A stretch of 42,089 nt of DNA. It comes from Rhodocyclaceae bacterium (lineage in GTDB: Bacteria > Pseudomonadota > Gammaproteobacteria > Burkholderiales > Rhodocyclaceae). How positions within the stretch are numbered: the stretch's first letter is position 1; each line of letters opens with the position of its first letter. The stretch lies in NCBI GenBank assembly GCA_020445745.1, contig JAGRGB010000118.1, positions 1-42,089 of the forward strand. The letters run 5' to 3'. Shown here piece by piece: positions 5,043 through 41,532 of this stretch. Made by a program: the position numbers and the translations under genes. Under the pieces are notes generated by a model, which was not told where the DNA came from, did no database searches, and saw only the letters and a program-made list of their open reading frames with translations.

Positions 5043-5053
5043 CGAGCCGGACC

Positions 5054-5085: not shown

Positions 5086-5173
5086 CGACCGCGGCAGCGG
5101 CGGGACCCATCGAAGGCCCTGGGCGGGCAATCCACGCGGCCCCGGGTAGCGCAATCCCAACGAAGAGGTTTCG

Positions 5174-6142: not shown

Positions 6143-6158
6143 CAACCGGAGCAAAGCG

Positions 6159-9941: not shown

Positions 9942-10319
9942 GACCTGGATGCGACCAGCCGTGTCTTGGTCGGGCGACCAACCTTTGCCGGACGGGGCTG
10001 TATCCCGCTGGACTTCATACGTACTTTCCGGCCGGCAAGTTGCGCCGACCTTTCCAAGCAACCAGGCTTTCCTGCCGCACCCAGGCTTGACCACACTTGT
10101 GCGACCTCTGGCGGTTCAAACGATGTCAATAATCGCCGAAGATCTACATAGCATTTCCGTACGCCCACTTGAGATACATCAAATAGGCTTCGAATTCTCC
10201 GACTGACTCATCGCCAGCTCACCTATCGTCTGATAGATTTGCCTCCTTTTCGCCCACCAGGCATAGCGTCACAGCATATTTTTCGATTCATCCTACAATC
10301 TGCCAGCGGAGATTTCCAA
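9942..10319. other. Non-coding, AT-richer leader of the repeat-protein gene
   Basis: About 380 bases without a convincing gene. GC falls toward the right end. A TTG-started extension of the downstream frame (from 10239) lacks a ribosome-binding site and would bury the signal peptide, so it is treated as untranslated. The promoter of the downstream gene probably lies here but is not resolved. Confidence 0.5.
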
Positions 10320-22760: not shown

Positions 22761-23534
22761 ATGAAAGCCGTGATCCTGGCCGGCGGACTCGGAACCCGGC
22801 TGTCCGAGGAAACCCAGTCCAAGCCGAAACCGATGGTCGAGATCGGTGGACGACCGATTCTGTGGCATCTGATGAAGGTGTTCACCGCCCATGGCGTCAA
22901 CGAGTTCATCATTTGCCTGGGATATCGCGGCTACGTCGTCAAGGAGTTCTTCGCGAACTACTTCCTGCACACCTCCGATGTCACCTTCGACATGCGCGAG
23001 AACCGCATGGAAGTGCACGAGCGGCACACCGAGCCCTGGCGGGTCACGCTGGTGGACACCGGCGAGCAGACCCAGACCGGTGGCCGCCTGCGTCGGGTGC
23101 GGCCCTATGTCGAGGACGAGACATCCTTCTTCTTCACCTACGGCGACGGCCTCGCCGATGTGGATCTCGGCGAACTGAGGCGCTTCCATGCCGCCCACGG
23201 GCGCGCCGCGACGGTCACCGCGGTGGCACCGCCGGGCCGCTTCGGCGCCCTCGACATGGACGGACAGGCGGTCACGCGATTCAAGGAAAAGCCGGCCGGC
23301 GACGGCAACCTGATCAACGGTGGCTTCTTCGTACTGTCACCGCGCGTTCTGGACACCATAGACGGCGACGACATGCCATGGGAGGCGGCGCCGATGCAAC
23401 GCCTGGTCGCCGAGGAGCAGTTACGTGCCTTTGTCCATCGTGGTTTCTGGCAGCCAATGGACACCCTGCGCGACAAGCAAAACCTCGATCGCCTGTGGCT
23501 CAGCGGCCACGCGCCGTGGAAGATCTGGAAATGA
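22761..23534 (+). CDS. rfbF: Glucose-1-phosphate cytidylyltransferase
   Basis: 257 residues, from ATG 22761 (GGAG 9 bases upstream). It activates glucose-1-phosphate with CTP to CDP-glucose, the first committed step to CDP-dideoxyhexoses. The nucleotidyltransferase signature LAGGLGTRLSEETQSKPKPM is at 6-25; the FTYGDG metal-binding Asp, NGGFFV and FWQPMDTLRDK motifs are those of RfbF/DdhA/AscA. Length is that of the Salmonella and Yersinia enzymes. The stop overlaps the rfbG start (ATGA). It is the first gene of the long glycan locus; the 110-base leader contains a small GGCGG/CCGCC hairpin (22676-22692) but no promoter I can fix. Confidence 0.96.
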   Translation: MKAVILAGGLGTRLSEETQSKPKPMVEIGGRPILWHLMKVFTAHGVNEFIICLGYRGYVVKEFFANYFLHTSDVTFDMRENRMEVHERHTEPWRVTLVDTGEQTQTGGRLRRVRPYVEDETSFFFTYGDGLADVDLGELRRFHAAHGRAATVTAVAPPGRFGALDMDGQAVTRFKEKPAGDGNLINGGFFVLSPRVLDTIDGDDMPWEAAPMQRLVAEEQLRAFVHRGFWQPMDTLRDKQNLDRLWLSGHAPWKIWK

Positions 23535-24589
23535 GATCGTCGCGCTACGCCGGGCGCCGCGTACTGATCACCGGCCACACCGGCTTCAAGGGAAGCTGGC
23601 TGTCGTTGTGGCTGTCCCGCCTGGGCGCACGGGTCAGCGGTTTCGCGCTGGCGCCGGACACCGAGCCGTCGCTGTACGTCGCGGCCCGCGTCGACGAACG
23701 GGTCGACTCGATGATCGGTGACATCCGCGATGCAGACCGGGTGGCCGAGGCGGTCGCCGGCTTCGCGCCCGAGATCGTCTTCCATCTCGCCGCGCAGCCA
23801 CTGGTGCGGCGCGGCTACGCCGAGCCGCTGCATACCTTCGCGACCAATGTCATGGGCACGGCCAACCTGCTGGATGCGGTGCGCCGCAGCGGATCGGTGA
23901 AGGCCGTCGTGGTGGTCACCAGCGACAAGTGCTATCGCGAGGACACCAACACCTTCGGCTACCGCGAGACCGACCCCCTCGGCGGCCACGACCCCTATGC
24001 GGCGAGCAAGGCCGCCGCCGAGCTGGTCACCAGTGCCTGGCGCGCCAGCTTCGGCAACTGCCCCGGTGCCGCGCTGATCGCCACCGCGCGCGCCGGCAAC
24101 GTCATCGGCGGCGGCGACTGGGCCAGTGATCGGCTGATTCCCGACCTGTGGCGTGCCGCCCGTTCGAAGCGACCGGCGCTGATCCGCAACCCGGCCGCGG
24201 TACGACCCTGGCAGCATGTCCTCGAGCCCTTGTCCGGCTACCTGCTGCTCGGCGAGAGGCTGCTCGGCGGCGACGCCGAGGCGGCCGACGCCTGGAACTT
24301 CGGCCCGGCACTGGCGGACATGGAATCGGTCGAGAAGCTGTGCCAGTCGATGTGCCCGCGCCTCGGCGTCGAATGGCGCTACGATCGCACGCCCCAGCCC
24401 CGCGAGGCAGCCGTCCTGCGCCTCGACAGCTCCAAGGCGGCGATGCGCCTGGGCTGGCGGCCACGCTTCTCGCTCGACGAGGCGATCGCGCTGACCGGCG
24501 ACTGGTACGCCCGCTTCGACGCCGGCGAGGACCCGCGCGGACTGTGCATCGAGCGCATCGAACGCTACGAGCAATGCCGGCGCCGCTGA
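23531..24589 (+). CDS. rfbG: CDP-glucose 4,6-dehydratase
   Basis: 352 residues. It converts CDP-glucose to CDP-4-keto-6-deoxyglucose using tightly bound NAD. The short-chain dehydrogenase plan is clear: [10 protein letters not shown] (14-23), [17 protein letters not shown] with the catalytic Thr/Asp-Lys pair, YAASK with Tyr156 and Lys160, and [24 protein letters not shown] is diagnostic of the RfbG/DdhB/AscB group. It is translationally coupled to rfbF by a 4-base overlap. 196 GC-rich bases separate it from rfbH; they hold a perfect 16-bp palindrome (24720-24735) and the rfbH ribosome-binding site but no gene. Confidence 0.96.
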
Positions 24590-24785
24590 ACGATTCCTGC
24601 CGATCGCCGCAAGCCGCCTTGCCCGGCGCAGCGTGCCGCGATCGCGGCCGGGATCGGCCGGACAACGCCGATTCCCCCACCCGGCGCCGCCACGAGCCAC
24701 CGACCGCCTCGCCCGCGCGGCCGCCCCGGGGCGGCGCTTGCGGTCGCCGCGAGCGGGTGTCGCGCAGCGACGGGAGGATCGTCCG

Positions 24786-26189
24786 ATGAGCGCACCACCG
24801 AACCGCGCGGCGGTACGCGCCGCGGTCACCGCCTGGTGCGACGCCCTGCCCGAGACGGCCGCATTCGAGCCCGGGCGGACACCGGTACCGGTCTCTGGCA
24901 AGATCGTCGGCACCGCCGAGCGCCTGGCGATGGTCGAGGCGGCCCTCGACGGCTGGCTGACCACCGGCCGCTTCAACGAAGCCTTCGAGCAGCGCCTCGC
25001 GGCCTGGTTCGGCCTGGCCCGGGCGCTGACCGTCAATTCCGGTTCGTCCGCCAACCTGGTGGCGGTATCCAGCCTGTTCTCGCCGCGCCTCGGCTGCGCC
25101 GCGATGCGCCCCGGCGACGAGGTCATCACCGTCGCCGCGGGCTTCCCGACCACCGTCAATCCGATCCTGCAGAACGGCGCGATCCCGGTTTTCGTCGATA
25201 TCCGGCCGGATACCTACGACATCGACGTCGCACGCCTGGAAGCGGCGCGGAGCCCGCGCACGCGGGCGATCGTGCTCGCCCACACGCTCGGCAACCCCTT
25301 CGATCTGGCCGCGGTGAGCGACTTCTGCGCACGCCACGGATTGTGGCTCGTCGAGGACTGCTGCGATGCGCTGGGCTCGCGCTATCGCGTCGCGGACGAA
25401 GCACCGGCCTGGCAAGCCCGCATGCCGGATGCCCGCGACCCGTCCCTGTGGCGCCCCGCCGACGACGCCCCGCGCGAGCGCCACGTCGGCGCCTTCGGCC
25501 ACTTCGCGACGGTTTCGTTCTACCCGGCCCATCACATCACGATGGGTGAAGGCGGCGCCGTGCTCAGTTGCGAGCCGGATCTGGCGGCGATCGCCGAATC
25601 GATCCGCGACTGGGGGCGCGACTGCTGGTGCGCGCCCGGCTGCGACAATACCTGCGGCCGACGCTTCGACTGGCAGCTGGGCGAGCTGCCACGCGGCTAC
25701 GACCACAAGTACACGTACTCCCACCTCGGCTACAACCTCAAGATCAGCGACATGCAGGCCGCCTGCGCGCTCGCCCAGATGGACCGCCTTGAGGAATTCG
25801 TCGCGGCCCGTCGCCGCAACTTCGAATACCTGTCGGAACGTTTCGCCGATTGCCAGGACGTGCTGGCCCTGCCACGCGCGACCGCCGGATCGGCGCCGTC
25901 GTGGTTCGGCTTTCCGCTGACCCTGAGGCCGGAAGCCGGGGTCGACCGGGTCGACATGTTGCGCTGGCTCGACCAGCACCGCATCGCCAGCCGCCTGCTG
26001 TTTGCCGGCAACCTGACCCGCCAGCCCTACATGACCGGCCGCGACTACCGCGTCGCCGGTTCGCTCGAGGTCACCGACCGGATCATGAGCGACACCTTCT
26101 GGATCGGCGTCTGGCCGGGCCTCGACGAAGCCATGCTGGAGTACGCCGCCAACCGCATCCGCCTGTTCCTGGGGCGGGACTTCGACTGA
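24786..26189 (+). CDS. rfbH: CDP-4-keto-6-deoxyglucose 3-dehydrase (RfbH/E1), with an insertion
   Basis: 467 residues. A PMP-dependent, iron-sulphur 3-dehydrase that removes the C3 hydroxyl of CDP-4-keto-6-deoxyglucose. Like Yersinia E1, the DegT-fold lysine is replaced by His ([14 protein letters not shown]; His249 aligns with E1 His220), so it cannot act as an ordinary aminotransferase. Cys193, Cys280, Cys282 and Cys290 reproduce the cluster pattern C-Xn-C-X1-C-X7-C. Here n is 86 rather than 57: a 29-residue insertion lies between SRYR (about 201) and HVGAFG (about 233). Start at 24786 has GGGAGG 8 bases upstream. The usual reductase partner (RfbI/DdhD/E3) is not in the window. The next gene begins 11 bases downstream. 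Confidence 0.94.
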
Positions 26190-26200
26190 GAACGCTGCCG

Positions 26201-27691
26201 ATGAAACCGCTCTTCGTATTCGAGATGGCGAACAACCACATGGGTGACCTGGAGCACGGCATCCATACCATCCGTTCCGTGCGTGACGCCTGCAGCGGCT
26301 TCGAACAGGACTTCGATTTCGCCTTCAAGCTGCAGTACCGCGACCTCGACACCTTCATCCACCGCTCGCTGCGGGGCCGCAGCGACATCAAGTACATCAA
26401 GCGCTTCGAGGAAACCCGGCTCGACGACGACGCCTTCCGCACCCTGGTCGCGGAGATGCGGGCGATGGGCTTCGGCACCGTGTGCACGCCGTTCGACGAG
26501 GCCTCGGTGGCACGCATCGAAGCGCACGGCATCGACACCATCAAGATCGCCAGCTGCTCGTTCGGCGACTGGCCGCTGATGGAGCGCATCGCCGCTGCCG
26601 GCAAGGCGGTGATCGCCTCCACCGCGGGCGCCGGCGAAGACGTCATCGACCAGGTCGTGAGCTTCTTCCTGCATCGCCACACCACGCTGACCCTGATGCA
26701 TTGTGTCGCCGAGTACCCGACCCCCGACGACGCGCTGCAACTCAATCAGATCGACCTGCTGCGCCAGCGCTACCCGGACTGCCGCATCGGCTATTCGACC
26801 CACGAGTCGCCGGCCAACACCGAGGCGGTGATGATGGCGCTGGCAAAGGGCGCGTCGGTGTTCGAGAAGCACGTCGTGCTGCCGACCGAGCGATATGCCG
26901 CCAACGCCTATTCCGCCGACCCGGGACAGATCCGGGCATGGCTGGCAGCCGCCGAGCGCGCCCGCCGGATCTGCGGGCGGCAGGGCCGCTACGAACCGTC
27001 GCCGGGCGAGCGCAACAGCCTGCACTCGCTGCGCCGCGGCGTCTTCGCGTTGCGCGACATCGCCGCCGGCAGCGAGATCGACGACAGCGCGGTGGAGTTC
27101 GCGTTCCCGCCGGCGGAAGGGCAGCTGACCGCCAACGAGTGGTCGAAATACGCGCGCTTTACGGCCCGCGAGGCCATTCCGGCCGGCGCCCCGGTGCGCC
27201 ATGGGGCGATCGCGGAACGACAGCTGCGAGGGCGCGTGCTCGACGCGGTGACCCGCGTCAAGGCCCTGCTCGCGGCCGGCAACATCGTCGTCCCGGGCAA
27301 GTCCGACCTCGAGCTGTCCCATCACTACGGCATGGAGCGCTTCGACGAGTTCGGCCTGACGATGGTCACCGTGGTCAATCGCGAATACTGCAAGAAGCTG
27401 CTGGTGATGCTGCCGGGCCAGACCCATCCGGAGCAGTACCACGAGAAGAAGGAAGAGACCTTCGTGGTGCTCCACGGCGAGCTCGACCTGTGGCTCGACG
27501 GCGAGCACCAGCGGGTCGCTGCCGGCGACGTCGTCACGGTGCAGCGCGGCGTGCGGCACCGGTTCCACAGCCGGGCCGGCACGGTGTTCGAGGAGATCTC
27601 CTCGACCCACGCCAAGGACGACTCCTACTACACCGATCCGGCGATCGCGGACAACCCGCGGCGCAAGACCTGGCTCACCTACTGGATGTGA
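26201..27691 (+). CDS. NeuB-like sugar-acid synthase fused to a C-terminal cupin
   Basis: 496 residues. The NeuB/PseI-type barrel (about 1-245) has FEMANNHMGD, FKLQYRD, CTPFDEAS, KIAS, LMHCVAEYPTP and the metal-binding histidines H201 (IGYSTH) and H224 (FEKH). These enzymes join phosphoenolpyruvate to a C6 aminosugar to form a nonulosonic acid. An antifreeze/SAF-like domain (about 275-345, LRRGVFALRDIAAGSEI) follows, as in NeuB. The last 125 residues are an added cupin with probable metal ligands His409, His414, Glu418/419 and His453. The family's STG loop reads STAG. It lies 11 bases after rfbH and 2 bases before the TPP enzyme. Its acceptor sugar is unknown; no UDP-linked Neu, Leg or Pse precursor genes are here. 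Confidence 0.88.
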   Translation: MKPLFVFEMANNHMGDLEHGIHTIRSVRDACSGFEQDFDFAFKLQYRDLDTFIHRSLRGRSDIKYIKRFEETRLDDDAFRTLVAEMRAMGFGTVCTPFDEASVARIEAHGIDTIKIASCSFGDWPLMERIAAAGKAVIASTAGAGEDVIDQVVSFFLHRHTTLTLMHCVAEYPTPDDALQLNQIDLLRQRYPDCRIGYSTHESPANTEAVMMALAKGASVFEKHVVLPTERYAANAYSADPGQIRAWLAAAERARRICGRQGRYEPSPGERNSLHSLRRGVFALRDIAAGSEIDDSAVEFAFPPAEGQLTANEWSKYARFTAREAIPAGAPVRHGAIAERQLRGRVLDAVTRVKALLAAGNIVVPGKSDLELSHHYGMERFDEFGLTMVTVVNREYCKKLLVMLPGQTHPEQYHEKKEETFVVLHGELDLWLDGEHQRVAAGDVVTVQRGVRHRFHSRAGTVFEEISSTHAKDDSYYTDPAIADNPRRKTWLTYWM

Positions 27692-27693
27692 CG

Positions 27694-29523
27694 ATGGCAC
27701 TTGTCAGGGTCGCCGACTGGATCATGCAGCGCCTCGCCGACGAGGGGCTGCGCCATGTCTTCGTGCTGCCCGGCGGCGGCGCGATGCACCTCGACGACGG
27801 GCTCGCCTGCGAGCAGCGACTGACTGCGGTGCCGTGCCACCACGAACAGGCCTGCGGCATCGCCGCCGAGGCCTACGGGCGCACCGGCCACCCAGCCAAC
27901 GCCGGTTTCGGCGTCGCGCTGGTGACCACCGGGCCCGGCGCGACCAACGTCGTGACGCCGGTGGCCGGCGCCTGGATCGACTCGATTCCGCTCCTGGTCA
28001 TCTCCGGCCAGGCCAAGCGGGCGGACCGCCTCAACGGCCGGCCGCTGCGCCAGGGCGGTGTGCAGGAGGTGGACATCGTGCCGATGGTGCGCCCGATCAC
28101 CAAGTACGCGGCCACCATCACCGAGCCCGGCGACGTCCGCCGCCATCTCGAAGCCGCGCTGCACGCGATGAGCAACGGCCGGCCGGGGCCGGTCTGGATC
28201 GACGTGCCGCTCGACGTCCAGGCCGCGCCGGTGGATCCAGACACCCTGCCGCCGGCGACCCTGCCGCACGGCATGCCTGCCGCCAGCCCGGACCTGGCGC
28301 AGGTCGCCGGCTGGCTGGCCGGCGCCCGGCGGCCGCTGCTGCTGGCCGGCCACGGCGTGCGACTGGCCGCCGCCGGCGAGCGCCTGCGCGCCCTCGCCGA
28401 GCGCCTCGGCGTGCCGCTGGCGACCACCTGGAACGCCACCGACATCCTCCCCTGGGACCATCCGCTCAATGCCGGCCGGCCCGGCGTCGTCGCCGCCAGG
28501 GGTGCCAACTTCGCCGTGCAGAACTGCGACCTGTTGATCAGCATCGGCTGCCGCCTCGACAACATCATCACCGCCTACAACCCACGCGGCTTCGCGCGCG
28601 CCGCACGCAAGGTGGTGGTGGACATCGACCGCCACGAGCTCGATGCCAAGGAGATGGCGCTCGACATGGCGCTGGCGATCGATGCCGGGGCATTCATCGA
28701 AGCCCTCGGTGCCGCCACCAGCGGTATCGCGCTGCAGCCCGAAATCGCCGAATGGCGTGCCCGGATCAGCGGCTGGAAGCAGCGCTACCCGGTGTTCGAC
28801 AGTGCCGCTGCGCCGGCGTCGGGACGGATCGGCCACTTCCAGTTCGCCGATGCGCTGTCCGACGCGATTCCGCCGCACACCCTGATCGCCACCGGCAGCT
28901 CCGGACTCGCGGTCGAGGCCTTCTACACCGCGTTCCGCAACAAGGCCGGCCAGCGCATCTTCCTGACCTCCGGACTCGGCGCGATGGGCTACGGCCTGCC
29001 GGCCGCGATCGGCGCCTGCCTCGGCAACGAATCCCGGCCGATGGTCGCGGTCGAGTCCGACGGCAGCCTCCAGCTCAATCTGCAGGAACTGGCGACACTG
29101 GCCGGCCACCGGCTGCCGATCTGCCTGCTGGTGATGAACAACGACGGCTACTGCTCGATCCGCAACACCCAGCGCAACTACTTTGCCGGCCGCTACCTCG
29201 GCACAGGTCCCGAGGCCGGGCTGGCGATGCCGAACCTGGAACGGCTGGCGGCCGCCTTCGAGCTGCCTTTCCTGTGCATCGACGACGCCGCCACGCTGGC
29301 CGACGACCTCTCCCGCGCGATGGCGCTGCCGCGCCCCTGCGTGATCGACGTGCACCTGCTGCGCGACGAGACGCTGGCGCCGAAATGCGCGGCGATTCCC
29401 CTCGCGGACGGCTCGATGCGCTCGATGCCGCTCGAGGACATGAGCCCGCTGCTGCCGCTGTCCGTCCTTCAAGGCGAAATGCTGGTTCCGCTCCTGAGCC
29501 AGTCGGTGGAGGCGAGGGCGTGA
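27694..29523 (+). CDS. Thiamine-diphosphate-dependent enzyme, acetolactate synthase-like
   Basis: 609 residues with the three domains of the acetohydroxyacid synthase family: N-terminal Pyr domain with activating Glu51 (HHEQACGIAAEAYGR), a central Rossmann domain (about 190-330), and the C-terminal PP domain with the TPP/Mg motif ESDGS (454-458) to MNND (481-484). It probably decarboxylates pyruvate or another 2-oxoacid and transfers the two-carbon unit. No regulatory small subunit or ilv gene is near. In Yersinia, YerE of this family adds a two-carbon branch to CDP-4-keto-3,6-dideoxyglucose made by RfbF/G/H homologues, which are all just upstream here. That is the leading hypothesis; a 2-oxoacid-supplying or ordinary acetolactate role is the alternative. 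Its stop overlaps the next gene's GTG. Confidence 0.85.
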   Translation: MALVRVADWIMQRLADEGLRHVFVLPGGGAMHLDDGLACEQRLTAVPCHHEQACGIAAEAYGRTGHPANAGFGVALVTTGPGATNVVTPVAGAWIDSIPLLVISGQAKRADRLNGRPLRQGGVQEVDIVPMVRPITKYAATITEPGDVRRHLEAALHAMSNGRPGPVWIDVPLDVQAAPVDPDTLPPATLPHGMPAASPDLAQVAGWLAGARRPLLLAGHGVRLAAAGERLRALAERLGVPLATTWNATDILPWDHPLNAGRPGVVAARGANFAVQNCDLLISIGCRLDNIITAYNPRGFARAARKVVVDIDRHELDAKEMALDMALAIDAGAFIEALGAATSGIALQPEIAEWRARISGWKQRYPVFDSAAAPASGRIGHFQFADALSDAIPPHTLIATGSSGLAVEAFYTAFRNKAGQRIFLTSGLGAMGYGLPAAIGACLGNESRPMVAVESDGSLQLNLQELATLAGHRLPICLLVMNNDGYCSIRNTQRNYFAGRYLGTGPEAGLAMPNLERLAAAFELPFLCIDDAATLADDLSRAMALPRPCVIDVHLLRDETLAPKCAAIPLADGSMRSMPLEDMSPLLPLSVLQGEMLVPLLSQSVEARA

Positions 29524-30530
29524 CCCCGGCCACCGCCTGCCCGTGTTGTGGCAGCAGCCGATCGGACAGCGCTAATGCGCCGGAACCCCATCACCACTGT
29601 ATGGCGTGCGGCCACCGCTGGCGCCAGCGGCCAAAGCACATCGACTATCGATCGCAGCGTGGGCGCAATGCACTTGCCGCCGAAACGCTCGAGCGGAAGT
29701 ATTGCGATCGACTCGCATCATTGCAGCCCCAGCTTGCCGACGGTCAACGACTGATCGAAATCGGCTGTGCGGAAGGCGAGCTTGGCAGGCGCATCAAGTC
29801 GCGGTACCGAGTCGACTACACTGGGATCGAGCCGTCGAACGACGCGAGGCTAGCGGGCAAACACCTCGATCATGTGAGGCCAGACTGCGCTGGATTGGCT
29901 GGGTCCGCGTTCGACGGCATCCTCGCCTTCCACGTACTCGAGCACATTGACGACATTTCGGCAGAACTCGGCAACTGGCACTGTCTTTGTGCCGACAGTG
30001 GCTGGATCGTCGTCGAGGTACCACGCGCCGCCGGACATCCCGACCTCCACTGGGACCGCAATACCGAGCACCTGCACCAGTTCAGTGGCGCCTCGCTGGC
30101 GACCCTGGTGGAAGGCGCCGGTTTTCGTATCGACCGCCTCGATGCCGGTCATTTCGAATCGGTCGGCTATCCGGATTGTCTTCGACTGCTGGCCCGTCCT
30201 GCCCGCAGCCCTGAAAAGCAGCAGGCCGATCTGTTGGCGCGCTTCCATCGGCATCTTTCAGCACCATTCCTGGTACGTGGCTGCGGCGGAGACTTCTCCA
30301 ATTATGTCGCGCCGCTTGCAGACCGCCTGCCAATCGCCGGCTTTGTCGGCCCGGCACAGGAAGAACCGCTACCGGGAATCCGGTGCCGCCCCTACCGGCC
30401 CGCAGACGACACCTCGAAACCGATCCTGATCGGAACACTGCGTTTCGAACGGGAAGTCATCGAAGATCTCCTTGCCGAGGGGCACCCGGCGGGCCTCATC
30501 GTCACGTTGAGCAGGATCCTGGAACGATGA
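29520..30530 (+). CDS. SAM-dependent methyltransferase with N-terminal zinc ribbon
   Basis: 336 residues from a GTG at 29520 that overlaps the preceding stop (GTGA). An N-terminal zinc ribbon (Cys7/Cys10 and Cys27/Cys30, CPCC and CMAC) precedes a class I methyltransferase domain with motif I LIEIGCAEGE (78-87) and FHVLEHI. A C-terminal extension of about 120 residues includes a Rossmann-like IAGFVGP and a LIGTLRFEREVIEDLL stretch. The plan resembles nucleotide-sugar C- or O-methyltransferases, with a degenerate C-terminal reductase-like domain. From here on, third-position GC drops compared with the upstream genes. It is coupled to the next gene by ATGA. The substrate is unknown. Confidence 0.82.
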   Translation: MTPATACPCCGSSRSDSANAPEPHHHCMACGHRWRQRPKHIDYRSQRGRNALAAETLERKYCDRLASLQPQLADGQRLIEIGCAEGELGRRIKSRYRVDYTGIEPSNDARLAGKHLDHVRPDCAGLAGSAFDGILAFHVLEHIDDISAELGNWHCLCADSGWIVVEVPRAAGHPDLHWDRNTEHLHQFSGASLATLVEGAGFRIDRLDAGHFESVGYPDCLRLLARPARSPEKQQADLLARFHRHLSAPFLVRGCGGDFSNYVAPLADRLPIAGFVGPAQEEPLPGIRCRPYRPADDTSKPILIGTLRFEREVIEDLLAEGHPAGLIVTLSRILER

Positions 30531-32829: not shown

Positions 32830-32848
32830 AACCGAAATGGAGGCGCGC

Positions 32849-33853: not shown

Positions 33854-35034
33854 AATTCCAAACCGCCCTGCGAGAGCCTGCGCATACGCCGCCTGCGCAA
33901 CTGGATGTCGAAGAGCCGATCTTCGTCACGAAACCGCACCTTCCGCCGTTGGAGGATTTCATCGACACCCTGCGGCAAATTTGGGCAAGCAAGGTTCTCA
34001 CCAACGGCGGTCCGTTGCACGCGGCGTTCGAAGAAGCGCTCGCACGATATCTTGGCGTGGAACACGCCGTTCTGTTTGCCAACGGGACCCTGGCCCTAGT
34101 TACCGCTCTGCAGGCTCTTCGCATCGGAGGGGAAGTCATTACGACACCCTATTCGTTCGTAGCAACTGCCCATGCCTTGCTCTGGAACGACATCAAGCCG
34201 GTGTTTGTCGATGTCGAGCCGGACACCTGCAATATCGACCCGGAACTCATCGAGTCGGCAATAACCCCCGCGACGACCGCGATCCTCGGAGTGCACTGCT
34301 ATGGCAACCCGTGCAAGGCGGCGCGCATTCAGCAGATCGCCGACAACTACAACCTGCGCGTCATCTACGACGGCGCTCACGCCTTCGGCGTCACCGACGT
34401 CGGCGGCAGCGTTCTGCGCCACGGCGATCTGACCATTCTGAGCTTTCACGCGACGAAGGTGTTCAATACCTTCGAAGGCGGAGCGATCATCTGTCCCGAC
34501 GCACGCACCAAGCGCCTGATCGGCCATCTGAAGAATTTCGGCTTCGTGGACGAGGTGACGGTGGTCGCCACCGGCATCAATGGCAAGATGAGCGAGATCA
34601 ATGCGGGATTGGGGCTTCTCCAGTTGCGCGACTTCGATTCGGTGCTGCAACGCCGCAAGGCATTGTACGAGCAGTACCTGGAGGCCCTCGCCGCACTGCC
34701 GGGCCTGCTGCTGCCGACTCCCGAGCACGCGACGAAGTACAACTATTCCTATTTTCCCGTTCGCGTGACGCCGGCTTTCGCAATCTCGCGTGACGATCTG
34801 TATGCGCGGCTACGACGCCAGAACATTTTTGGACGACGCTACTTCTTTCCGCTGATTTCGGAGTTCCCGATGTATCGCGGCCTGCCGTCGGCAGCCGCAG
34901 ATCGCTTGCCGGTGGCCACGCAGATTTCGCGCGAGGTCATTTGCCTGCCCCTCTATCCAGACATGACCCCGGGTGACGTCCGGCGCGTCGCGCGCGCGAT
35001 CGCCTCCGCGCGCGACGAGGCTAATCAGCAATGA
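33850..35034 (+). CDS. DegT/DnrJ/EryC1/StrS sugar aminotransferase
   Basis: 394 residues. A PLP enzyme that aminates a keto-sugar nucleotide, usually with glutamate. It shows TPYSFVATAHA, VDVEPDTCNIDP, YDGAHAFG (Asp174) and SFHATKVFNTFEGG with the Schiff-base Lys203 in place. This contrasts with RfbH in the same locus, where the lysine is His. The sequence is closest in feel to VioA/FdtB-type 3- or 4-aminotransferases; the position aminated cannot be told. 4-base overlaps on both sides link it to a glycosyltransferase and an ATP-grasp ligase, pointing to an aminosugar that is then acylated. Confidence 0.93.
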   Translation: MKFQTALREPAHTPPAQLDVEEPIFVTKPHLPPLEDFIDTLRQIWASKVLTNGGPLHAAFEEALARYLGVEHAVLFANGTLALVTALQALRIGGEVITTPYSFVATAHALLWNDIKPVFVDVEPDTCNIDPELIESAITPATTAILGVHCYGNPCKAARIQQIADNYNLRVIYDGAHAFGVTDVGGSVLRHGDLTILSFHATKVFNTFEGGAIICPDARTKRLIGHLKNFGFVDEVTVVATGINGKMSEINAGLGLLQLRDFDSVLQRRKALYEQYLEALAALPGLLLPTPEHATKYNYSYFPVRVTPAFAISRDDLYARLRRQNIFGRRYFFPLISEFPMYRGLPSAAADRLPVATQISREVICLPLYPDMTPGDVRRVARAIASARDEANQQ

Positions 35035-36155
35035 GCAAGCCTTCTCGCGGCTTCGTGGTCTTCAGCGGATACAACTCGCGGGCAGTGATCGCTTTCGCAC
35101 GGGCCATGGCCCACCAGGAAGTACCGTTCTGCTTGGTCGCGAGGGATGGCGCCGACGAAATATTGAGGACTCGATTCGCGAACCGCGTCGCTGCCATCCG
35201 TCCAGATCGTTCCCTCGACCCGCAAAGGCTCGCAGCGTTGCTGGACGAAGTGCGCGAACGAACCGGCTTCGGGCGACTGGTGCTCGCACCGACGACCGAG
35301 TCGCTCAACCGGGTCTTCCTGGAGCACCGGGAACTCTTCGCGTCCGGAGGCGTCGATGTGCCGCTGGTTGCGCAGAAACTGTATCGCGAATTGTCCGACA
35401 AGCTGCCTTTCACTGAATTGTGCCGGGCGCACGGTATCGCCGTGCCAGCGGCGATCGACGATCCGCGGCAGGCCCCACTGCCGTTCGTCGCCAAGCCGAT
35501 CGCCTACGATCTCGTGAACCCGGTGGCCCCTATGCTGATCTGCAAGGAAGAAGAGCGCCGGGCGTTTGTCGCTCGCCCCGACATGGATCGCTTCTTCCTG
35601 CAATCCTATGTCGGTGGACGCAGTCTCTATCTGCTGCTGCATGTCGGCCTGGACCAGCAGGTCCTGTCCTTCTCGCAAGAGAATTTCATCCAACAGCCGC
35701 ACGGGAAATCCATTGTCGCGGCATGCCCCTCGGATTTTCACCACAGCGAGGAAGCCGCACGATATGTATCGATGTTATTGGCTGTCGGCTTTCGCGGATT
35801 GGCCATGATCGAAGTCCGGGAGCACCAGGGTAGATTTGCGATGATCGAGTGCAATCCACGCATGTGGGGGCCATCGCAACTGTTCGTCGACGCCATGGGC
35901 ACAAACCTGTTCGAGGCGTTTGCACGTGACCATGGTTTCCCATGCAGCGTCCGGCCGCTGTTGGCCCGCACTGACTGCAGGTACTTCTGGTTTGGCGGGC
36001 TACTCGACGCACTGCAGGGAAATTCCTCGCCCACGTTCCACGCCTACTCGGCCCGCCGCTTGGCCGCCGAATTGCCGATCTGGATGGAAAACGACATCTT
36101 TCGGCGCGAAGACAGCTTAGACCTCTTTGCGGATACATTCGAGGCTGGCAGATGA
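35031..36155 (+). CDS. ATP-grasp carboxylate-amine ligase-like protein
   Basis: 374 residues. An N-terminal pre-ATP-grasp domain (VVFSGYNSRAVIAFARAM) is followed by an ATP-grasp fold: PFVAKPI nucleotide-binding strand, FLQSYVGG, IEV and the metal-binding motif MIECNPRMWG (Glu273, Asn275). Enzymes of this type activate a carboxylate as an acyl phosphate and couple it to an amine. Sitting between the aminotransferase and a methyltransferase, with ATGA overlaps on both sides, it may attach an amino acid or another acid to the new amino group of the sugar. No standard N-acetyltransferase is present in the locus, which would make this the acylating step. Substrates are inferred only. Confidence 0.82.
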   Translation: MSKPSRGFVVFSGYNSRAVIAFARAMAHQEVPFCLVARDGADEILRTRFANRVAAIRPDRSLDPQRLAALLDEVRERTGFGRLVLAPTTESLNRVFLEHRELFASGGVDVPLVAQKLYRELSDKLPFTELCRAHGIAVPAAIDDPRQAPLPFVAKPIAYDLVNPVAPMLICKEEERRAFVARPDMDRFFLQSYVGGRSLYLLLHVGLDQQVLSFSQENFIQQPHGKSIVAACPSDFHHSEEAARYVSMLLAVGFRGLAMIEVREHQGRFAMIECNPRMWGPSQLFVDAMGTNLFEAFARDHGFPCSVRPLLARTDCRYFWFGGLLDALQGNSSPTFHAYSARRLAAELPIWMENDIFRREDSLDLFADTFEAGR

Positions 36156-36931
36156 ATTCCATTGACCGCCTGCGGGAGCTGTACCGCGCGCGCAGCAAGC
36201 ATTCCGACTACCAGCGCACAGCACCGGCCCTCGCGCCCCTTCTCGGAGACGACTGCCTGCCTTCCGTGGATCGGCTCGAGCCCGAACGCTTCCTGTTCCT
36301 TCACCGACACCTGCCGCTGGCAGGTCGTTCGGTCATCGACATCGGAGCCAACTGCGGCTATTTCACGCTCGAAGCACTTCGAGCGGGCGCCACCAGCGTC
36401 GTCGCTTTCGAGGGTAACCTGGAACACGCCGCCTTCCTGGGCCTGGCTGGCGAGTTGCTTGCGTTTGGGCCGAGGCTGACCGTCCGCGCCACCTACCTCG
36501 ATCCCCGGCACGCCACCTGCAACGATCACGCCGACGTCATCTTTTGCCTCAACGTGATCCATCACCTCGGCGACGACTTCGGAGTCGACGCCACGAACGT
36601 AGGACACGCACGTCACGAGATGGGCCGGTATATTCGGTCGCTGACTCATCTCGGCTCACACTTGGTTCTCCAGTTGGGCTTCAACTGGCGCGGCAACCGG
36701 CACCTGCCACTGTTCGAACATGGAACCAAGCAGGAACAGATCGATTTCGTATCCTGGCTGGCGGGGGACGACTGGGCGATTCGTGCAATAGGAATTGCCC
36801 ATGAGCGCGAGTCCTGCGCCGGGCTCCAATATGAACCGCCGGCATCGCACAATCTCGGACGACGTAACGATCTCGGCGAATTCGCGAATCGGCCGATATT
36901 CCTGCTCGAGAATACGTCACCGCCGCGGTGA
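36152..36931 (+). CDS. SAM-dependent methyltransferase (small-molecule/sugar O- or N-type)
   Basis: 259 residues, class I fold. Motif I VIDIGANCGYFT is at 61-72, with VAFEGN as the acidic end of the second strand, and VIFCLNVIHHLGDD as motif IV. It resembles the DUF1698/CmoB-like and FkbM-type group only in the core. It starts with ATGA over the ATP-grasp stop, so it is coupled to it, and is followed by a 37-base gap to the large glycosyltransferase. A terminal decoration step (methyl ether or N-methyl) on the glycan or its acyl group is the likely role. GC is lower than in genes outside the cassette. Confidence 0.85.
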   Translation: MNSIDRLRELYRARSKHSDYQRTAPALAPLLGDDCLPSVDRLEPERFLFLHRHLPLAGRSVIDIGANCGYFTLEALRAGATSVVAFEGNLEHAAFLGLAGELLAFGPRLTVRATYLDPRHATCNDHADVIFCLNVIHHLGDDFGVDATNVGHARHEMGRYIRSLTHLGSHLVLQLGFNWRGNRHLPLFEHGTKQEQIDFVSWLAGDDWAIRAIGIAHERESCAGLQYEPPASHNLGRRNDLGEFANRPIFLLENTSPPR

Positions 36932-36968
36932 CCACGAATCCGCAACGAACGCAATCGGAAGACTCCCC

Positions 36969-39900
36969 ATGCGAATCTTCAGCCGCAATCGCCCGTACTA
37001 TGTCGATGCCCCCCCCTACCGCAGGACATCGGGCGGAATCCGCGTCATGCACCTGCTCTGCCATACACTCAATCGTATCGGCGAAGAGGCATACGTCTAT
37101 ACGCGCGAAACCGACCCGGCGCTCCACACGCCGACCCTGACCAGCGACATCGAGGCTGGGCATCGGGCTGCAAATCTGGATCCGATCACGATCTATCCGG
37201 AGATCGTGCAGGGCAATCCCCGTGGCTCCGGCTCCGTCGTCCGCTATGTTCTCAATCGGGCCGGCCTTATCGGTGGCACATCCCGATTCGACGCGAGCGA
37301 ACTCGTCTATGCATTCGGGCAGAATATCTGTCCCGCCGGCACGCCGCTGGAATCGGTCCTGTTTCTTCCGCCGTTCGACCTTTCGGTATTCCATAACGAA
37401 AGCAATCCGGACGACTCACATCGCCACGGCGCACTCGTCTATATCGGCCGTCACGTCATGGAGGAGGAGGAACGACTTCGGCTGCCAGCCGATGCGCGTG
37501 AGATCAGTAGCACCTGGCCCAGTTCTCACGAAGCGCTCGCCGCCGAGCTTCGCCGGACGCAGGTCCTGTATTGCTTCGAGAGTTCGGCGATCGCGGCGGA
37601 GGCGGTCCTGTGCGGCTGCCCTGTGGTGCTCCTGCGCTCACCGCAATTCGACGGAACGGTCATCAGCGCGCAGGAAATCGGGACCTGGGGAATTGCGACG
37701 AACGATTCGCCTGCGGCCTTGGAAAAGGCTCGCCACGAATTACCGAAATTGCGCGAGAGCGTCATAGCGGCCGAAGCGCGTTACTGGAAAGACCTGGGTC
37801 GATTCGTCACGCGCACCCAGACGATGCCGGTTTCAAACCAGGGGAACGCCGGCATGCTGACCTCAAGGCAGCGGGATTACTCGCTGTGGCGCAGCCGCCG
37901 CACCCCCCAGGAGATCGACGGCCAGTTGCACGCCGAGCGGATGGTGTCGAAATGGCGCTTCCGCCCGCGCTTCGCGCTCGGCGTGCGATTCGGCGCGAGC
38001 GACGGCGAACTGCTCGCCAACACCATCGATGCGCTGGCCCGTCAGTGGTATCCGGAATGGTCTCTGGTGGTGTTCGCAGCGGGCATCGACGGCCCCCCCG
38101 AATTGCAGGGCATCGAACAGATCCGCTGGCTCGCCGACGCTGACCAGCAGCTTTCGTTCGCCACGCTGCGTGGCGCCCATGACGCCGATTTCTATGCGGT
38201 CCTGCCGGTCGGCACGATGCTCGACGACCACGGGTTGCAGGCCATCTCCGACGAGATCAACGCGTCGCCCCAGTGGCTCGCGCTCTACACCGACCACGAC
38301 GAGACCGACGCCGAGCATGCCGGCGCCGAGCCGCATTTCAAGCCCGACTTCAACCCCGAACTGCTCTACTCGCGCAACTATGTCGGGCCGGCGGCCTTCG
38401 TTTGCCGCGAGGCGCTCGACGCGTTCGGCGACGGCGACGAGATCCTCTCGGCATCGCCCTACGGGCTGCTGTTGCGGATCCACGGCCAGACCGGGCCGGC
38501 GTCGATCGGCCACGTCGCCGATCCGCTGATCCACTGCCCCCAGACGACAGCCGACGACGATGCCGATGCGGCCGCGCTGCGCCGCCATTTCGATCGCTTC
38601 GGCAAGCGCGCGACGATCGAGGACGGCTGGTTCAGCCACACCCGCCGCGTGCGCTTCGAGCGACCCGCCGCGGCCCGCGTGTCGGCAATCGTGATGACCC
38701 ATTCGCAACCCGGCTACCTGAAGAACTGCCTCGACGCGCTGATGCGCACCGCCGGCCAGCCGCCGTGCGAACTGATCGTCGTCGCCCATGCCGTGCGCGA
38801 TCCCGACCTGAAGGCCTATCTCGCCGGGATCGAGACCGGCGCCCTCGGCATCCCATGCACGCTGATCCACGAAGCCGGTCCGTTCCGGCCGGCCGAGTTC
38901 CGCAACCGGGCGGCCGCTGCCGCCAGCGGCGACTACCTGCTGTTCATCGATGACGACACCGAGTCCTTCCACGACGGCTGGCTCGACGCACTGGTCGGGC
39001 ATGCCGCGGCCTGCGGGCTCGCCGCCGTCGGACCACGGCTGATCAGTTCCACCGACGGACCGCCACGAATCGTCGGCGGCGGCCGCATCCTGGGGCTCAA
39101 CGGGGTCGCCGGCGAGATCGGCACCGGCACACCGAGCCTGCTCGACGGCGGCTACGACCTGCGCCTGCAGGTCGACCAGGCGGTGTCGGCGCTGCCGGCC
39201 AACTGCCTGCTGGTAAGAAGCAGCGATTTCGAACGCCTCGGCGGCTTCGACGCCGCCGCCGCGCCGCAGCTGATGCACGACATCGATTTCTGCCTGCGCT
39301 GCACCGCCACAGGCGGCCGCGTGGCCTGGCTCGGCTCGGTCGATGTCGCCCACCAGGAAGGCGTCACCCGCGCCGAAGCCACCCGCAGCGCCAGCGGCCA
39401 GGCCGATTGGCTGGCGAATCTCGAGCACGAACGCCTGGCGCTGTTGCAGCGACACCTGCCGCGGATCGCCAATGACCCCCATTACAACCGCAACTACAGC
39501 CTGTGCGAATCGCATCACATCGATCTCCAGGCGATCGCCGACTGGCATCCGCGCTTCCACGACCGCCCACGCCTGCTGGGCGCACCACTGACCACCGGCG
39601 CCGGCCAGTACCGCATGGTGGCGCCGTTCAGGGCGCTGGCGCGCGCCGGTCTGGCCCAGTGCACGATCGTTCATCCGGTCGCCGACAACCGGCTGCGCAC
39701 TTTGTCGGCGGTCGAGATCGCGCGCCTGGCCCCGGACGTGGTGATCTACCAGAACTGCATCGAGGTGCCGATGATCCGCCAGCTCGCGGAATCGTCACGC
39801 CTCAACCCGGACATCGAACACATCGCGACGATCGACGACCGGCTCGGCGACCTGCCGCGCGACAACCCGCACTATGCGATCCATGCGCGCCACGCACGTA

Positions 39901-40568
39901 CCCGCCTGCGCGAAGCGCTCGCTCACTGCCGGCGCCTGATCGTCACCACCGAACCCTTGCGCGAGTACTTGGCCGACCTGATCGAAGACGTGCGGGTGGT
40001 GCCGAACTGCCTCGAACGCGACGTCTGGGGCGACCTGACGGGCGAGATCAACGATCACCGGCGGCCGCGCGTGGGCTGGGTCGGGGCGATGCAGCACGCG
40101 GGCGATCTGCGACTGATCGAACCGATCATGGCCGCCCTCGCCGACGAGGTCGATTTCGTGTTGATGGGGATGTGCCCGACCTTCCTGAAGCCCTACGCGA
40201 AGGAGGTCCATCCCTTCGTGTCGATCGGCGAGTATCCGCGACGGATGGCCACCTTGCGCCTCGATCTGGCATTGGCGCCCCTCGAGCAGCATCCCTTCAA
40301 CGAATGCAAGAGCAATCTTCGCCTGATCGAATACGGCGCCCTCGGCTGGCCGGTGATCTGCACCGACATCGCGCCGTATCGCGACGGTGCTCCGCCGGTG
40401 ACCCGCCTCGCCAACGATCCAACGCTCTGGATCGACACCATAAGGCAACGAATTCACGACCGCGACCACCTCAAAGAAGAAGGAATCCTGCTGCGTCGCT
40501 GGGTCCATGAGAACTACATACTGGAGGACAAGCTGGCGCTCTGGATGGCCGCGCTGCAGGGGAAATAG
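36969..40568 (+). CDS. Giant multidomain glycosyltransferase (GT4-like, GT2, GT2, GT4)
   Basis: 1,199 residues; ATG 36969 has GGAAG 7 bases upstream. Four modules can be seen. Residues 1-290 form a GT-B-like segment with YIGRHV and the ESSAIAAEAVLCGCPVVLL acceptor/donor motif. Residues about 335-560 are a GT2-like domain with YTDHDETDAE and PHFKPDFNPELL. Residues about 568-810 are a second GT2 domain with AIVMTH and FIDDDTE. Residues about 860-1199 are a GT4 domain with GWVGAMQHAGD and ECKSNLRLIEYGALGWPV. No membrane span. It directly precedes flagellin, as large flagellin glycosyltransferases do in other bacteria, so sequential sugar transfer onto flagellin is inferred. Third-position GC rises sharply after about 37860 (residue 297), so the N-terminal module belongs compositionally to the upstream cassette. 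Confidence 0.85.
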   Translation: MRIFSRNRPYYVDAPPYRRTSGGIRVMHLLCHTLNRIGEEAYVYTRETDPALHTPTLTSDIEAGHRAANLDPITIYPEIVQGNPRGSGSVVRYVLNRAGLIGGTSRFDASELVYAFGQNICPAGTPLESVLFLPPFDLSVFHNESNPDDSHRHGALVYIGRHVMEEEERLRLPADAREISSTWPSSHEALAAELRRTQVLYCFESSAIAAEAVLCGCPVVLLRSPQFDGTVISAQEIGTWGIATNDSPAALEKARHELPKLRESVIAAEARYWKDLGRFVTRTQTMPVSNQGNAGMLTSRQRDYSLWRSRRTPQEIDGQLHAERMVSKWRFRPRFALGVRFGASDGELLANTIDALARQWYPEWSLVVFAAGIDGPPELQGIEQIRWLADADQQLSFATLRGAHDADFYAVLPVGTMLDDHGLQAISDEINASPQWLALYTDHDETDAEHAGAEPHFKPDFNPELLYSRNYVGPAAFVCREALDAFGDGDEILSASPYGLLLRIHGQTGPASIGHVADPLIHCPQTTADDDADAAALRRHFDRFGKRATIEDGWFSHTRRVRFERPAAARVSAIVMTHSQPGYLKNCLDALMRTAGQPPCELIVVAHAVRDPDLKAYLAGIETGALGIPCTLIHEAGPFRPAEFRNRAAAAASGDYLLFIDDDTESFHDGWLDALVGHAAACGLAAVGPRLISSTDGPPRIVGGGRILGLNGVAGEIGTGTPSLLDGGYDLRLQVDQAVSALPANCLLVRSSDFERLGGFDAAAAPQLMHDIDFCLRCTATGGRVAWLGSVDVAHQEGVTRAEATRSASGQADWLANLEHERLALLQRHLPRIANDPHYNRNYSLCESHHIDLQAIADWHPRFHDRPRLLGAPLTTGAGQYRMVAPFRALARAGLAQCTIVHPVADNRLRTLSAVEIARLAPDVVIYQNCIEVPMIRQLAESSRLNPDIEHIATIDDRLGDLPRDNPHYAIHARHARTRLREALAHCRRLIVTTEPLREYLADLIEDVRVVPNCLERDVWGDLTGEINDHRRPRVGWVGAMQHAGDLRLIEPIMAALADEVDFVLMGMCPTFLKPYAKEVHPFVSIGEYPRRMATLRLDLALAPLEQHPFNECKSNLRLIEYGALGWPVICTDIAPYRDGAPPVTRLANDPTLWIDTIRQRIHDRDHLKEEGILLRRWVHENYILEDKLALWMAALQGK

Positions 40569-40581
40569 CGGAAATATTTCC

Positions 40582-40608
40582 TCAAGTTATCGACCTCGAC
40601 CCCGTAAT
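40582..40608 (+). promoter_or_regulatory. Putative sigma-28 (FliA) promoter of flagellin
   Basis: TCAAGTTA (40582-40589), an 11-base spacer and CCCGTAAT (40601-40608) fit the spacing of the sigma-28 consensus TAAAGTTT-N11-GCCGATAA, with 6 of 8 matches in the -35 and 4 of 8 in the -10. Transcription would start near 40616, giving a leader of about 90 bases. A perfect 12-bp palindrome GGAAATATTTCC (40570-40581) abuts it upstream and could be an AT-rich UP-type element or an operator. Confidence 0.5.
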
Positions 40609-40704
40609 AGGCCTCAACGGCACAACACTGCCGTACATAGCTGGAACGCCGGCTCCACAGACCCCGGCGTCCGCCTGAAACTCGAGGAACCAAGGAGTCA
40701 TAAA

Positions 40705-41532
40705 ATGGCTGCCATCATCAACACCAACATCCAGTCCCTGAACGCTCAGCGGAACCTGTCGATGACGCAAACGTCGCTGGCGACCTCGCTGCAGCGCCTG
40801 TCTTCAGGCCTGCGCGTGAACAGCGCCAAGGACGATGCAGCCGGACTCGCGATCGCCACCCGCATGACCGCCCAGTCGCGCGGCATGACCGTGGCGATCC
40901 GCAACGCCAACGATGCCATCTCCCTGACCCAGACCGCCGAAGGCGCGCTCGGGCAGATCAAAGATCACCTGCTGCGGATGCGAGACATCGCGGTGCAGTC
41001 GGCCAGCCACACAAATCCGACGAGCGAGCGGGCCTCCCTCGAGGCCGAATACGACCAGCTGCAGGCGGAAATCAGCCGGATCGGCCAGCAGACCACCTTC
41101 AACGGGCTGAAGATCCTGGACTCGAATGCCGGCGCCCAGACGTTCCAGATCGGCGCCAACGGCGGCGAGACCATCAGCGTGACCACCACCGCGATCTCCG
41201 GTGGCGCCGTCTCCTCGGCGACCGCAGCCGCCTCTACGGTATCGTCCGCCGGTGGCGCATCGGCCGCGATCGCAACCATCGATGCCGCCATCGACAAGGT
41301 CAACACCGACCGCGCCACCTACGGCGCCGCCCAGGTACGCTTCGAGGGCGTGGTGTCGATGCTGCAGATCTCGCGCGAGAACCAGGAAGCCGCCGCCAGC
41401 CGCATCATGGACGCCGACTTTGCCGCTGAAACCGCGTCGCTGACCCGGGCCCAGATCCTGCAGCAGGCCGGTACCGCGATGCTGGCCCAGGCGAATGCTC
41501 TGCCGCAGAACGTGCTCAGCCTGCTTGGCTAA
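40705..41532 (+). CDS. fliC: Flagellin
   Basis: 275-residue filament subunit, exported by the flagellar type III apparatus without a cleaved signal. AAGGAG lies 7 bases before the ATG. The conserved D0/D1 ends are intact: IINTNIQSLNAQRNL, RLSSGLRVNSAKDDAAGLAI at the N-terminus, and SRIMDADFAAETASLTR, ILQQAGTAMLAQAN, NVLSLLG at the C-terminus. The central part is very short: a Ser/Thr/Ala/Gly-rich stretch (about 157-188) replaces D2/D3, a likely site of O-glycosylation by the upstream locus. The C-terminal YGAAQVRFEG differs from the usual LGAxQNRF. The gene has its own promoter and terminator, so it is a monocistronic unit. Confidence 0.97.
   Translation: MAAIINTNIQSLNAQRNLSMTQTSLATSLQRLSSGLRVNSAKDDAAGLAIATRMTAQSRGMTVAIRNANDAISLTQTAEGALGQIKDHLLRMRDIAVQSASHTNPTSERASLEAEYDQLQAEISRIGQQTTFNGLKILDSNAGAQTFQIGANGGETISVTTTAISGGAVSSATAAASTVSSAGGASAAIATIDAAIDKVNTDRATYGAAQVRFEGVVSMLQISRENQEAAASRIMDADFAAETASLTRAQILQQAGTAMLAQANALPQNVLSLLG

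Follow-up and report, generated by a model that had tools for sequence, protein, structure and literature searches.

The routes to C4-branched 3,6-dideoxyhexoses such as yersiniose share a core of rfbF, rfbG and rfbH genes and a YerE-like enzyme dependent on thiamine diphosphate (ThDP), as outlined in passages of PMC12247030 and PMC4509608. YerE takes CDP-3,6-dideoxy-4-ketoglucose, which RfbF/G/H produce, and couples it with an alpha-keto acid (relevant section of PMC12247030). Carboligases of this type hang a carbon chain on C4 in yersiniose, erwiniose, caryophyllose and gastriose. Here we analyze a stretch of 42,089 nucleotides from a Rhodocyclaceae bacterium (contig JAGRGB010000118.1 of assembly GCA_020445745.1; the whole stretch is called the window), in which 13 glycan genes, all on the plus strand at 22761-40568, are followed by the flagellin gene fliC and by flaG. 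The glycan genes include rfbFGH, a ThDP enzyme gene and a fusion of NeuB, SAF and cupin domains. On balance, we favor the reading that this is a flagellar glycosylation island built round a carbon-carbon coupling cassette, which would place a gastriose-type sugar of 13 or 14 carbons on FliC; this reading rests on sequence comparison and gene linkage, and both the enzymes and the glycan are predicted.

A preliminary description of the window had labelled the ThDP enzyme acetolactate-synthase-like. The ranking of PDB matches does not bear this out: 8rph comes first (396 bits, E = 2.5e-117), followed by 5ahk (256 bits, E = 5e-75), which we take to be PpYerE, and acetolactate synthases score at most 238 bits, the lead over them being clear for 8rph and narrow for 5ahk. 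According to the relevant part of PMC12188165, 8rph is JanthE. With YerE-like JanthE and 5ahk in front, identity as an acetolactate synthase was rejected; the enzyme is assigned from this ranking to the YerE-like ThDP carboligases, and its predicted reaction is acyl transfer to a ketone. The rfbFGH genes adjoin the ThDP gene in the window, and rfbH scores more than 250 bits (a threshold set for this analysis) in 53 of 80 related ThDP loci, the best 80 of at least 592 confirmed candidates from a scan of named genomes. Since YerE acts on the RfbF/G/H product, the gene set represents a known kind of pathway, and the combination of rfbFGH with a YerE-like enzyme supports the branched sugar that the preliminary description had considered possible. 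The ThDP-binding motif of the window's enzyme is SDG instead of the usual GDG. In quick trees, built without a mixture model or bootstraps, the enzyme falls into a clade of 35 rows (SH-aLRT 100); among the best 80 loci, SDG is found in 16 of 24 members of this clade (three have GDG, one has X and four were unread by the pattern) and in none of the 56 loci outside it (50 GDG, six unread).

The most informative part of the island, missed by the preliminary description, is the pairing of NeuB with the ThDP enzyme, which recurs across many bacterial phyla. NeuB is encoded within 3 kb of the ThDP gene in 64 of the 80 loci, on the same strand in 62; where both flanks measure 3 kb or more (64 loci), 52 have it. 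Within the window's clade, 33 of the 35 rows have a NeuB-cupin gene at most 3 kb from the ThDP gene; of the remaining two, L197 ends at its contig and L199 lacks NeuB throughout the stretch of about 28 kb that was read. Over the 81 rows of the first tree, nine changes in NeuB presence are required. Twelve of 118 Mycobacterium genomes have some match, and the five with at least 38% identity have NeuB, ThDP and rfbFGH genes together, joined in one of them (M. szulgai, where NeuB is fused to a cupin) by a HAD phosphatase and a methyltransferase. The NeuB-cupin-ThDP pair was also seen in two Prochlorococcus genomes without a flagellin match (L067, L076), and a contig labelled uncultured archaeon (L088) carries two ThDP genes, a NeuB-cupin fusion and rfbH.

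In 59 of the 64 NeuB-bearing loci a module resembling an isomerase and/or a phosphatase lies no more than 3 kb away, and these modules have unrelated folds: a cupin fusion (25 loci), a cupin fusion with a HAD-like protein (nine), a fused AP_endonuc_2 barrel (six), a KdsC-like phosphatase (15) and a KdsC-like phosphatase with a GmhA-like SIS protein (four); none was found in five loci. The AP_endonuc_2 (xylose-isomerase-like) barrel fused to NeuB is above the cut-off in L089, L078 and L085, which come from Pseudomonas, Herbaspirillum and a metagenome-assembled genome (MAG), and a PDB search found no relative of the barrel domain of L089. The KdsC subfamily is above its cut-off in L070 and L075; the GmhA-like match in L083 is below it (164 of 209 bits).

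As a control for NeuB simply following dideoxysugar loci, we analyzed 37 rfbH loci from 398 Pseudomonadota genomes (42 rfbH matches minus the window and four below the cut-off), reading 5.6-20 kb around each; several stretches reach contig ends, and only those of L194 and L199 were extended. Where the stretch read had no ThDP gene (20 loci), NeuB was never found; where it had one (17 loci), NeuB was found in four (L204, L207, L214 and, after extension, L194); 12 ThDP-bearing loci were NeuB-less, and L197 ends at its contig. The presence of NeuB follows the ThDP clade: among 16 testable ThDP loci it was found in four of five inside the window's clade vs. none of 11 outside (Fisher p = 0.003, counting related loci as independent). 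No NeuB was seen in the stretches read around L180 and L181, which group with PpYerE, or L179, which groups with JanthE. These NeuB-less relatives suggest that the window's ThDP enzyme uses a donor other than the pyruvate of the yersiniose A route.

The fusion protein was examined in an alignment of 29 of the 37 NeuB-cupin sequences (the window and 28 of 36 others). In the NeuB domain K40, T93, K112, S115, H198, E219 and H221 are invariant in all 29; they include the presumed counterparts of the catalytic Lys, Thr and Ser and the metal-binding His of meningococcal NeuB. The position of N184, presumably the ManNAc-contact residue of that enzyme, is Ala or Gly in all 29, and the region of R314, which we take to be a contact of the N-acylhexosamine acceptor, reads F, I or Y followed by P, a one-position alignment shift being possible. 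As judged from this alignment, the presumed N-acylhexosamine acceptor contacts of NeuB are not kept in the fusions. In a profile search the cupin domain matches D-lyxose ketol-isomerase 2y0o best (E = 2e-15); quercetinases come second (E = 4e-12) and the D-lyxose/D-mannose isomerase 7nzo third (E = 3e-11), over nearly the entire domain. At the metal ligands, position 409 is Q in 23 sequences and H in six, while H411, E416 and H450 are present in all 29. We infer that the cupin domain belongs to the D-lyxose/D-mannose ketol-isomerase family.

A single protein of the home genome matches NeuB and a single one matches CTP_transf_3; the latter is KdsB (TIGR00466, 273 bits, cut-off 155), and the CTP_transf_3 search found no sialic-type CMP transferase (CMP-nonulosonate synthetase) there. 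Sialic, pseudaminic and legionaminic acid pathways were rejected because of the missing NeuA-type match and the changed acceptor residue. The fusion is present at 79% identity or more in four of six genomes of the window's genus. Two of the same-genus genomes (G002 and G004) have a second ThDP gene, 38-39% identical, beside a second NeuB gene, 26% identical; in two same-genus genomes such a diverged ThDP-NeuB pair lies within the same island (L036, 8699-11672; L038, 12190-15005).

In the proposed pathway RfbF, RfbG and RfbH, by family assignment, would convert glucose-1-phosphate to a CDP-3,6-dideoxy-4-keto-hexose. The cupin domain would provide a free aldose, and the NeuB domain would join it to phosphoenolpyruvate (PEP) by the type of reaction that sialic-acid and Kdo synthases carry out, giving a 3-deoxy-2-ulosonic acid of eight carbons from a pentose or nine from a hexose. 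In place of CMP activation, this acid would go to the YerE-like enzyme, which may decarboxylate it and add the C7 or C8 acyl chain to C4 of the CDP-keto-sugar; a pentose origin would give a C7 branch, deoxy at its second carbon. More tentatively, the SDR might reduce or the DegT aminotransferase aminate the branch ketone, and the methyltransferases might methylate the product, while synteny suggests that the GT2 enzyme and the giant glycosyltransferase put it on FliC. The module of DegT, ATP-grasp and methyltransferase C (MT-C) genes probably makes a second sugar, also placed on FliC. Amino-acylation of the glycan, suggested in the preliminary description, might occur as well. The first product would resemble mycobacterial gastriose, a C4-branched 3,6-dideoxyhexose. 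We consider it fairly probable that the logic is widespread, with NeuB synthases and interchangeable isomerases or phosphatases making ulosonic acyl donors from which the YerE-like clade transfers a C7-C8 chain to C4 of a CDP-deoxysugar; it would be used for flagellin in the window and would explain mycobacterial gastriose.

Flagellin and CTP_transf_3 distances were determined for 40 of the 80 loci; 27 of these 40 genomes have any flagellin match. In nine of the 40 genomes the nearest flagellin gene follows the ThDP gene downstream, 9.4-16.8 kb away and on the same strand (six of 37 without L085, L090 and L114, where flagellin had already been seen in the flank), and five of the nine have another flagellin-family gene 5-10 kb upstream. 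In P. syringae and P. viridiflava, more than 30 kb separate the ThDP gene from genes of the flagellin family. Directly upstream of fliC and on the same strand, a homologue of the giant glycosyltransferase was found in seven other loci, five of them picked because a nearby flagellin was already known: those of G004, Zoogloea, Chromobacterium, Methylophaga, two Pseudomonas and the gammaproteobacterial MAG of L085. Glycan genes lie beside flagellar genes, with a glycosyltransferase next to fliC, and this is kept in relatives: the order cassette, giant glycosyltransferase, fliC, flaG recurs in Zoogloea, Chromobacterium, Methylophaga and Pseudomonas. Conservation in other genera indicates that the arrangement is not due to chance and makes flagellin the likely target of the glycan. 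The preliminary description, which had named flagellin as the carrier, is supported on this point. The home genome has a second flagellin gene (81% identical; L001, L046; G000:C16); in the 20 kb read around it, the glycan genes of the window are absent.

The same description had presented the 13 genes as a single pathway, which now appears doubtful. Homologues of the SDR (39-44% identity) are present in the islands of G001, Zoogloea, Chromobacterium and two Pseudomonas, and a 40% homologue of methyltransferase A directly follows the ThDP gene in Pseudomonas sp. CAN1 (L056). In G001, a genome of the same genus with a ThDP enzyme 86% identical to the window's, the middle island genes are replaced; that part of the island (L034, 3859-16000) contains two radical-SAM/SPASM genes and genes for an Fe-alcohol dehydrogenase, an AICARFT-like protein and other methyltransferases, not DegT or ATP-grasp. 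Another genome, G905, has ATP-grasp, MT-C, DegT and giant glycosyltransferase homologues next to three flagellin genes, with the MT-C homologue (38%) between the ATP-grasp (37-38%) and DegT homologues; nothing else on that contig matches a gene of the window, and the closest match to the ThDP enzyme anywhere in this genome is only 31% identical. One undivided pathway was rejected given the replaced genes in G001 and the module beside flagellins in G905. The DegT/ATP-grasp/methyltransferase part is best read, from its distribution, as a separate module, and these two genomes suggest an island made of a constant core, a terminal glycosyltransferase and exchangeable decoration.

Several observations weigh against the proposed coupling or limit its reach. 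Linkage of NeuB and ThDP genes does not prove one pathway, because polysaccharide genes cluster anyway. NeuB is absent within 3 kb in 16 of the 80 loci, 12 of which have at least 3 kb on both sides, and L199 is NeuB-less despite its ThDP gene of the window's clade. When NeuB is tabulated against ThDP presence rather than clade, p is 0.09 on the raw data and 0.04 after extension of L194. JanthE and PpYerE are placed somewhat differently in the two trees, the second of which omits L034, L040 and four distant paralogues, and both are long branches in the first. The partner modules were counted with hidden Markov models seeded from the same loci; the HAD-like label (group hadW) rests on a DxDDV motif, because the two members scanned have no Pfam match; and the AP_endonuc_2 family also includes endonucleases. 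Unlike many other ThDP loci, the island has no phosphatase among its 13 genes. In 31 of the 40 genomes the search found no flagellin gene up to 20 kb downstream, and in 13 it found none at all; hence the cassette is not specific to flagellin and serves other glycans too.

The NeuB product, a nonulosonic or Kdo-like acid, could instead be CMP-activated and attached to flagellin separately, with the ThDP enzyme making a yersiniose-type sugar from pyruvate. NeuB-family enzymes normally act in this way and flagellins often carry nonulosonates; KdsB, moreover, is present and could in principle activate a Kdo-like acid, and two or more CTP_transf_3 matches were found somewhere in 26 of the 41 genomes searched. 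However, the other 15 have a single match, a sialic-type CMP transferase was not found in the home genome, and just two of 40 other genomes (G136, weak, and G140; contigs are often short) have a CTP_transf_3 gene on the contig of the ThDP gene and no more than about 10 kb from it. Ten of the 13 proteins were scanned and contained no PseB-, PseC- or LegB-type protein above the cut-off. Given also the replacement of N184 in all 29 fusions and the association of NeuB with one ThDP clade, which separate activation leaves unexplained, we regard this alternative as unlikely.

Synthesis of a lipopolysaccharide (LPS) O-antigen or another surface polysaccharide, with an accidental position beside fliC, is less likely still. 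Most known YerE-like enzymes serve O-antigens and lipooligosaccharides, at least in the parts of PMC12247030 and PMC4509608 concerned, and 13 of the 40 ThDP-bearing genomes, some of them incomplete MAGs, gave no flagellin match; yet the 13 genes include no Wzx, Wzy or ABC exporter, the fliC-linked architecture recurs in several genera, and the decoration module adjoins flagellins in G905. We give the least credence to a different use of the NeuB-cupin protein, for example condensation of PEP with a branched aldehyde derived from the CDP-sugar while the ThDP enzyme donates acetaldehyde. The substrates of both enzymes are still only predicted, and JanthE takes many donors according to a passage of PMC12247030; the acceptors of NeuB-family enzymes, however, are free aldoses or their phosphates, and the isomerase and KdsC-like phosphatase partners suit an aldose route. 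Coupling of a NeuB-made ulosonic acid to the CDP-sugar is therefore preferred over these alternatives.

The genes are listed in the table below. Their number, strand and order agree with the preliminary description, as does the 136-base gap between the giant glycosyltransferase (stop at 40568) and fliC (start at 40705); its gene content is likewise supported, most weakly for the ATP-grasp-like ligase, which has sub-threshold matches only.

Table. Genes of the island and the adjoining flagellar genes, with positions in the window and supporting matches
Feature	Coordinates	Strand	Match
rfbF (ddhA), glucose-1-phosphate cytidylyltransferase	22761..23534	+	TIGR02623 439.9 bits, cut-off 300
rfbG (ddhB), CDP-glucose 4,6-dehydratase	23531..24589 (ATG at 23531)	+	TIGR02622 454 bits, cut-off 278
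rfbH (ddhC), CDP-4-keto-6-deoxyglucose 3-dehydrase	24786..26189	+	NF011936 678.6 bits, cut-off 423
NeuB-SAF-cupin fusion	26201..27691	+	Pfam NeuB 1e-37, SAF 9e-7, Cupin_2 3e-14; PDB 3g8r E 7e-137
Putative YerE-like ThDP carboligase	27688..29523 (GTG 27688 or ATG 27694)	+	best PDB match 8rph E 2.5e-117
S-adenosylmethionine (SAM) methyltransferase A, N-terminal CxxC pairs	29520..30530	+	Methyltransf_23 1.7e-22
SAM methyltransferase B, N-terminal CxxC pairs	30527..31723	+	Methyltransf_23 2.5e-19
SDR (NAD-dependent epimerase/reductase), candidate branch-ketone reductase	31720..32829	+	PF01370 3e-30
GT2 glycosyltransferase	32837..33853	+	PF00535 1.1e-25
DegT/DnrJ/EryC1 aminotransferase	33850..35034	+	PF01041 1.2e-99
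ATP-grasp-like ligase (tentative)	35031..36155	+	sub-threshold ATP-grasp matches
SAM methyltransferase C (MT-C)	36152..36931	+	Methyltransf_23 2.5e-4, below cut-off
Giant glycosyltransferase, proposed flagellin glycosyltransferase	36969..40568	+	PF00535 1.6e-11 (GT2)
fliC, flagellin, 275 aa	40705..41532	+	PF00669, PF00700
flaG	41609..42034	+	PF03646 1.5e-24

The rfbF, rfbG and rfbH products each exceed the cut-off of their own NCBIfam equivalog model. The giant glycosyltransferase has a GT1 match below the cut-off in addition to its GT2 domain, and the best NCBIfam model for the DegT aminotransferase is DesI-like (311 bits, under its cut-off of 650). The ATP-grasp-like protein, tentatively assigned and the weakest gene call of the island, matches nothing in Pfam, NCBIfam or the PDB at normal thresholds; it shows sub-threshold matches to three ATP-grasp families (best E = 0.0045) and an ExNPR-like motif. 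Four-base overlaps are found at eight of the 12 junctions of the 13 genes, with start codons picked by eye. A GGDEF gene (20078-21898) lies upstream of rfbF, as it does in the same-genus genomes G001 and G004, and the island therefore probably extends from this gene to fliC. Elsewhere in the window, an MtrC/OmcA-type outer-membrane multihaem cytochrome (10 CXXCH) and an MtrB/PioB porin at 2481-8345 apparently form an extracellular electron transfer locus, and the local G+C content dips to 0.55 at 10001-11000, vs. about 0.67 around.

If the proposed pathway is correct, NeuB-family enzymes gain a second metabolic role, and annotation of such loci as sialic-acid loci should be avoided. Sugars of 13 to 14 carbons would then be predicted on the flagella of Zoogloea, Chromobacterium, Methylophaga and some Pseudomonas. 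The NeuB-ThDP pairing could allow the donors of many loci to be assigned together, and it suggests a biosynthetic route for a class of puzzling branched sugars.

With respect to known systems, RfbF/G/H (and RfbS) occur in the flagellar glycosylation island of Clostridium butyricum, with paratose as the predicted product, and CDP-4-keto-6-deoxyglucose genes occur in the type 23 islands of Erwinia and Pantoea (parts of PMC13317340 and PMC4875605). RfbFGH in a flagellar island is therefore not new, and with the YerE-type core known as well, the earlier statement that no characterized pathway resembles the gene set does not hold. The products proposed for these islands in the same parts are unbranched, however, and the words "thiamine" and "NeuB" are absent from the main texts of the two papers, so that the NeuB-ThDP reading is unaffected. 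Titles, abstracts and passages yielded no literature link of NeuB to YerE-like enzymes; an earlier description in work on ErwE, JanthE or YerE-like clusters is possible.

The isomerase, PEP synthase and phosphatase logic is that of the sialic acid and Kdo pathways (NeuB; KdsD-KdsA-KdsC), whereas the window's product would feed a ThDP carboligase, not a CMP transferase. The yersiniose A pathway (DdhA-DdhB-DdhC-YerE-YerF) of Yersinia pseudotuberculosis, which has also been found in or predicted for Pseudomonas O-antigens, shares the rfbF/G/H reactions and a ThDP carboligase of the YerE type whose substrate is a CDP-3,6-dideoxy-4-ketohexose. YerE, however, uses pyruvate to give a C2 branch for LPS, whereas in the window a NeuB-isomerase fusion is coupled to the system, the ThDP enzyme falls into another clade and the target is probably flagellin. 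JanthE, the best solved relative, likewise has an unusual ThDP motif (CDG, vs. SDG in the window), but it forms a separate branch of the tree, and the only sampled rfbH locus grouping with it (L179) is NeuB-less in the 20 kb read.

The closest products are gastriose (M. gastri, MygE) and caryophyllose (M. marinum, MMAR_2332), C4-branched 3,6-dideoxyhexoses with long polyhydroxyalkyl branches, although these are lipooligosaccharide sugars and not flagellin glycans. The gastriose of M. gastri has a 1,3-dimethoxy-4,5,6,7-tetrahydroxyheptyl branch, which would be exactly the pattern predicted for a C7 branch of pentose origin. Gastriose is named as a C4-branched 3,6-dideoxyhexose in a title cited by PMC5706390, and the caryophyllose branch is given in a passage of the same paper as 1,3,4,5-tetrahydroxyhexyl; it is deoxy at position 2, as would be expected from an aldol-type keto acid followed by ThDP transfer.

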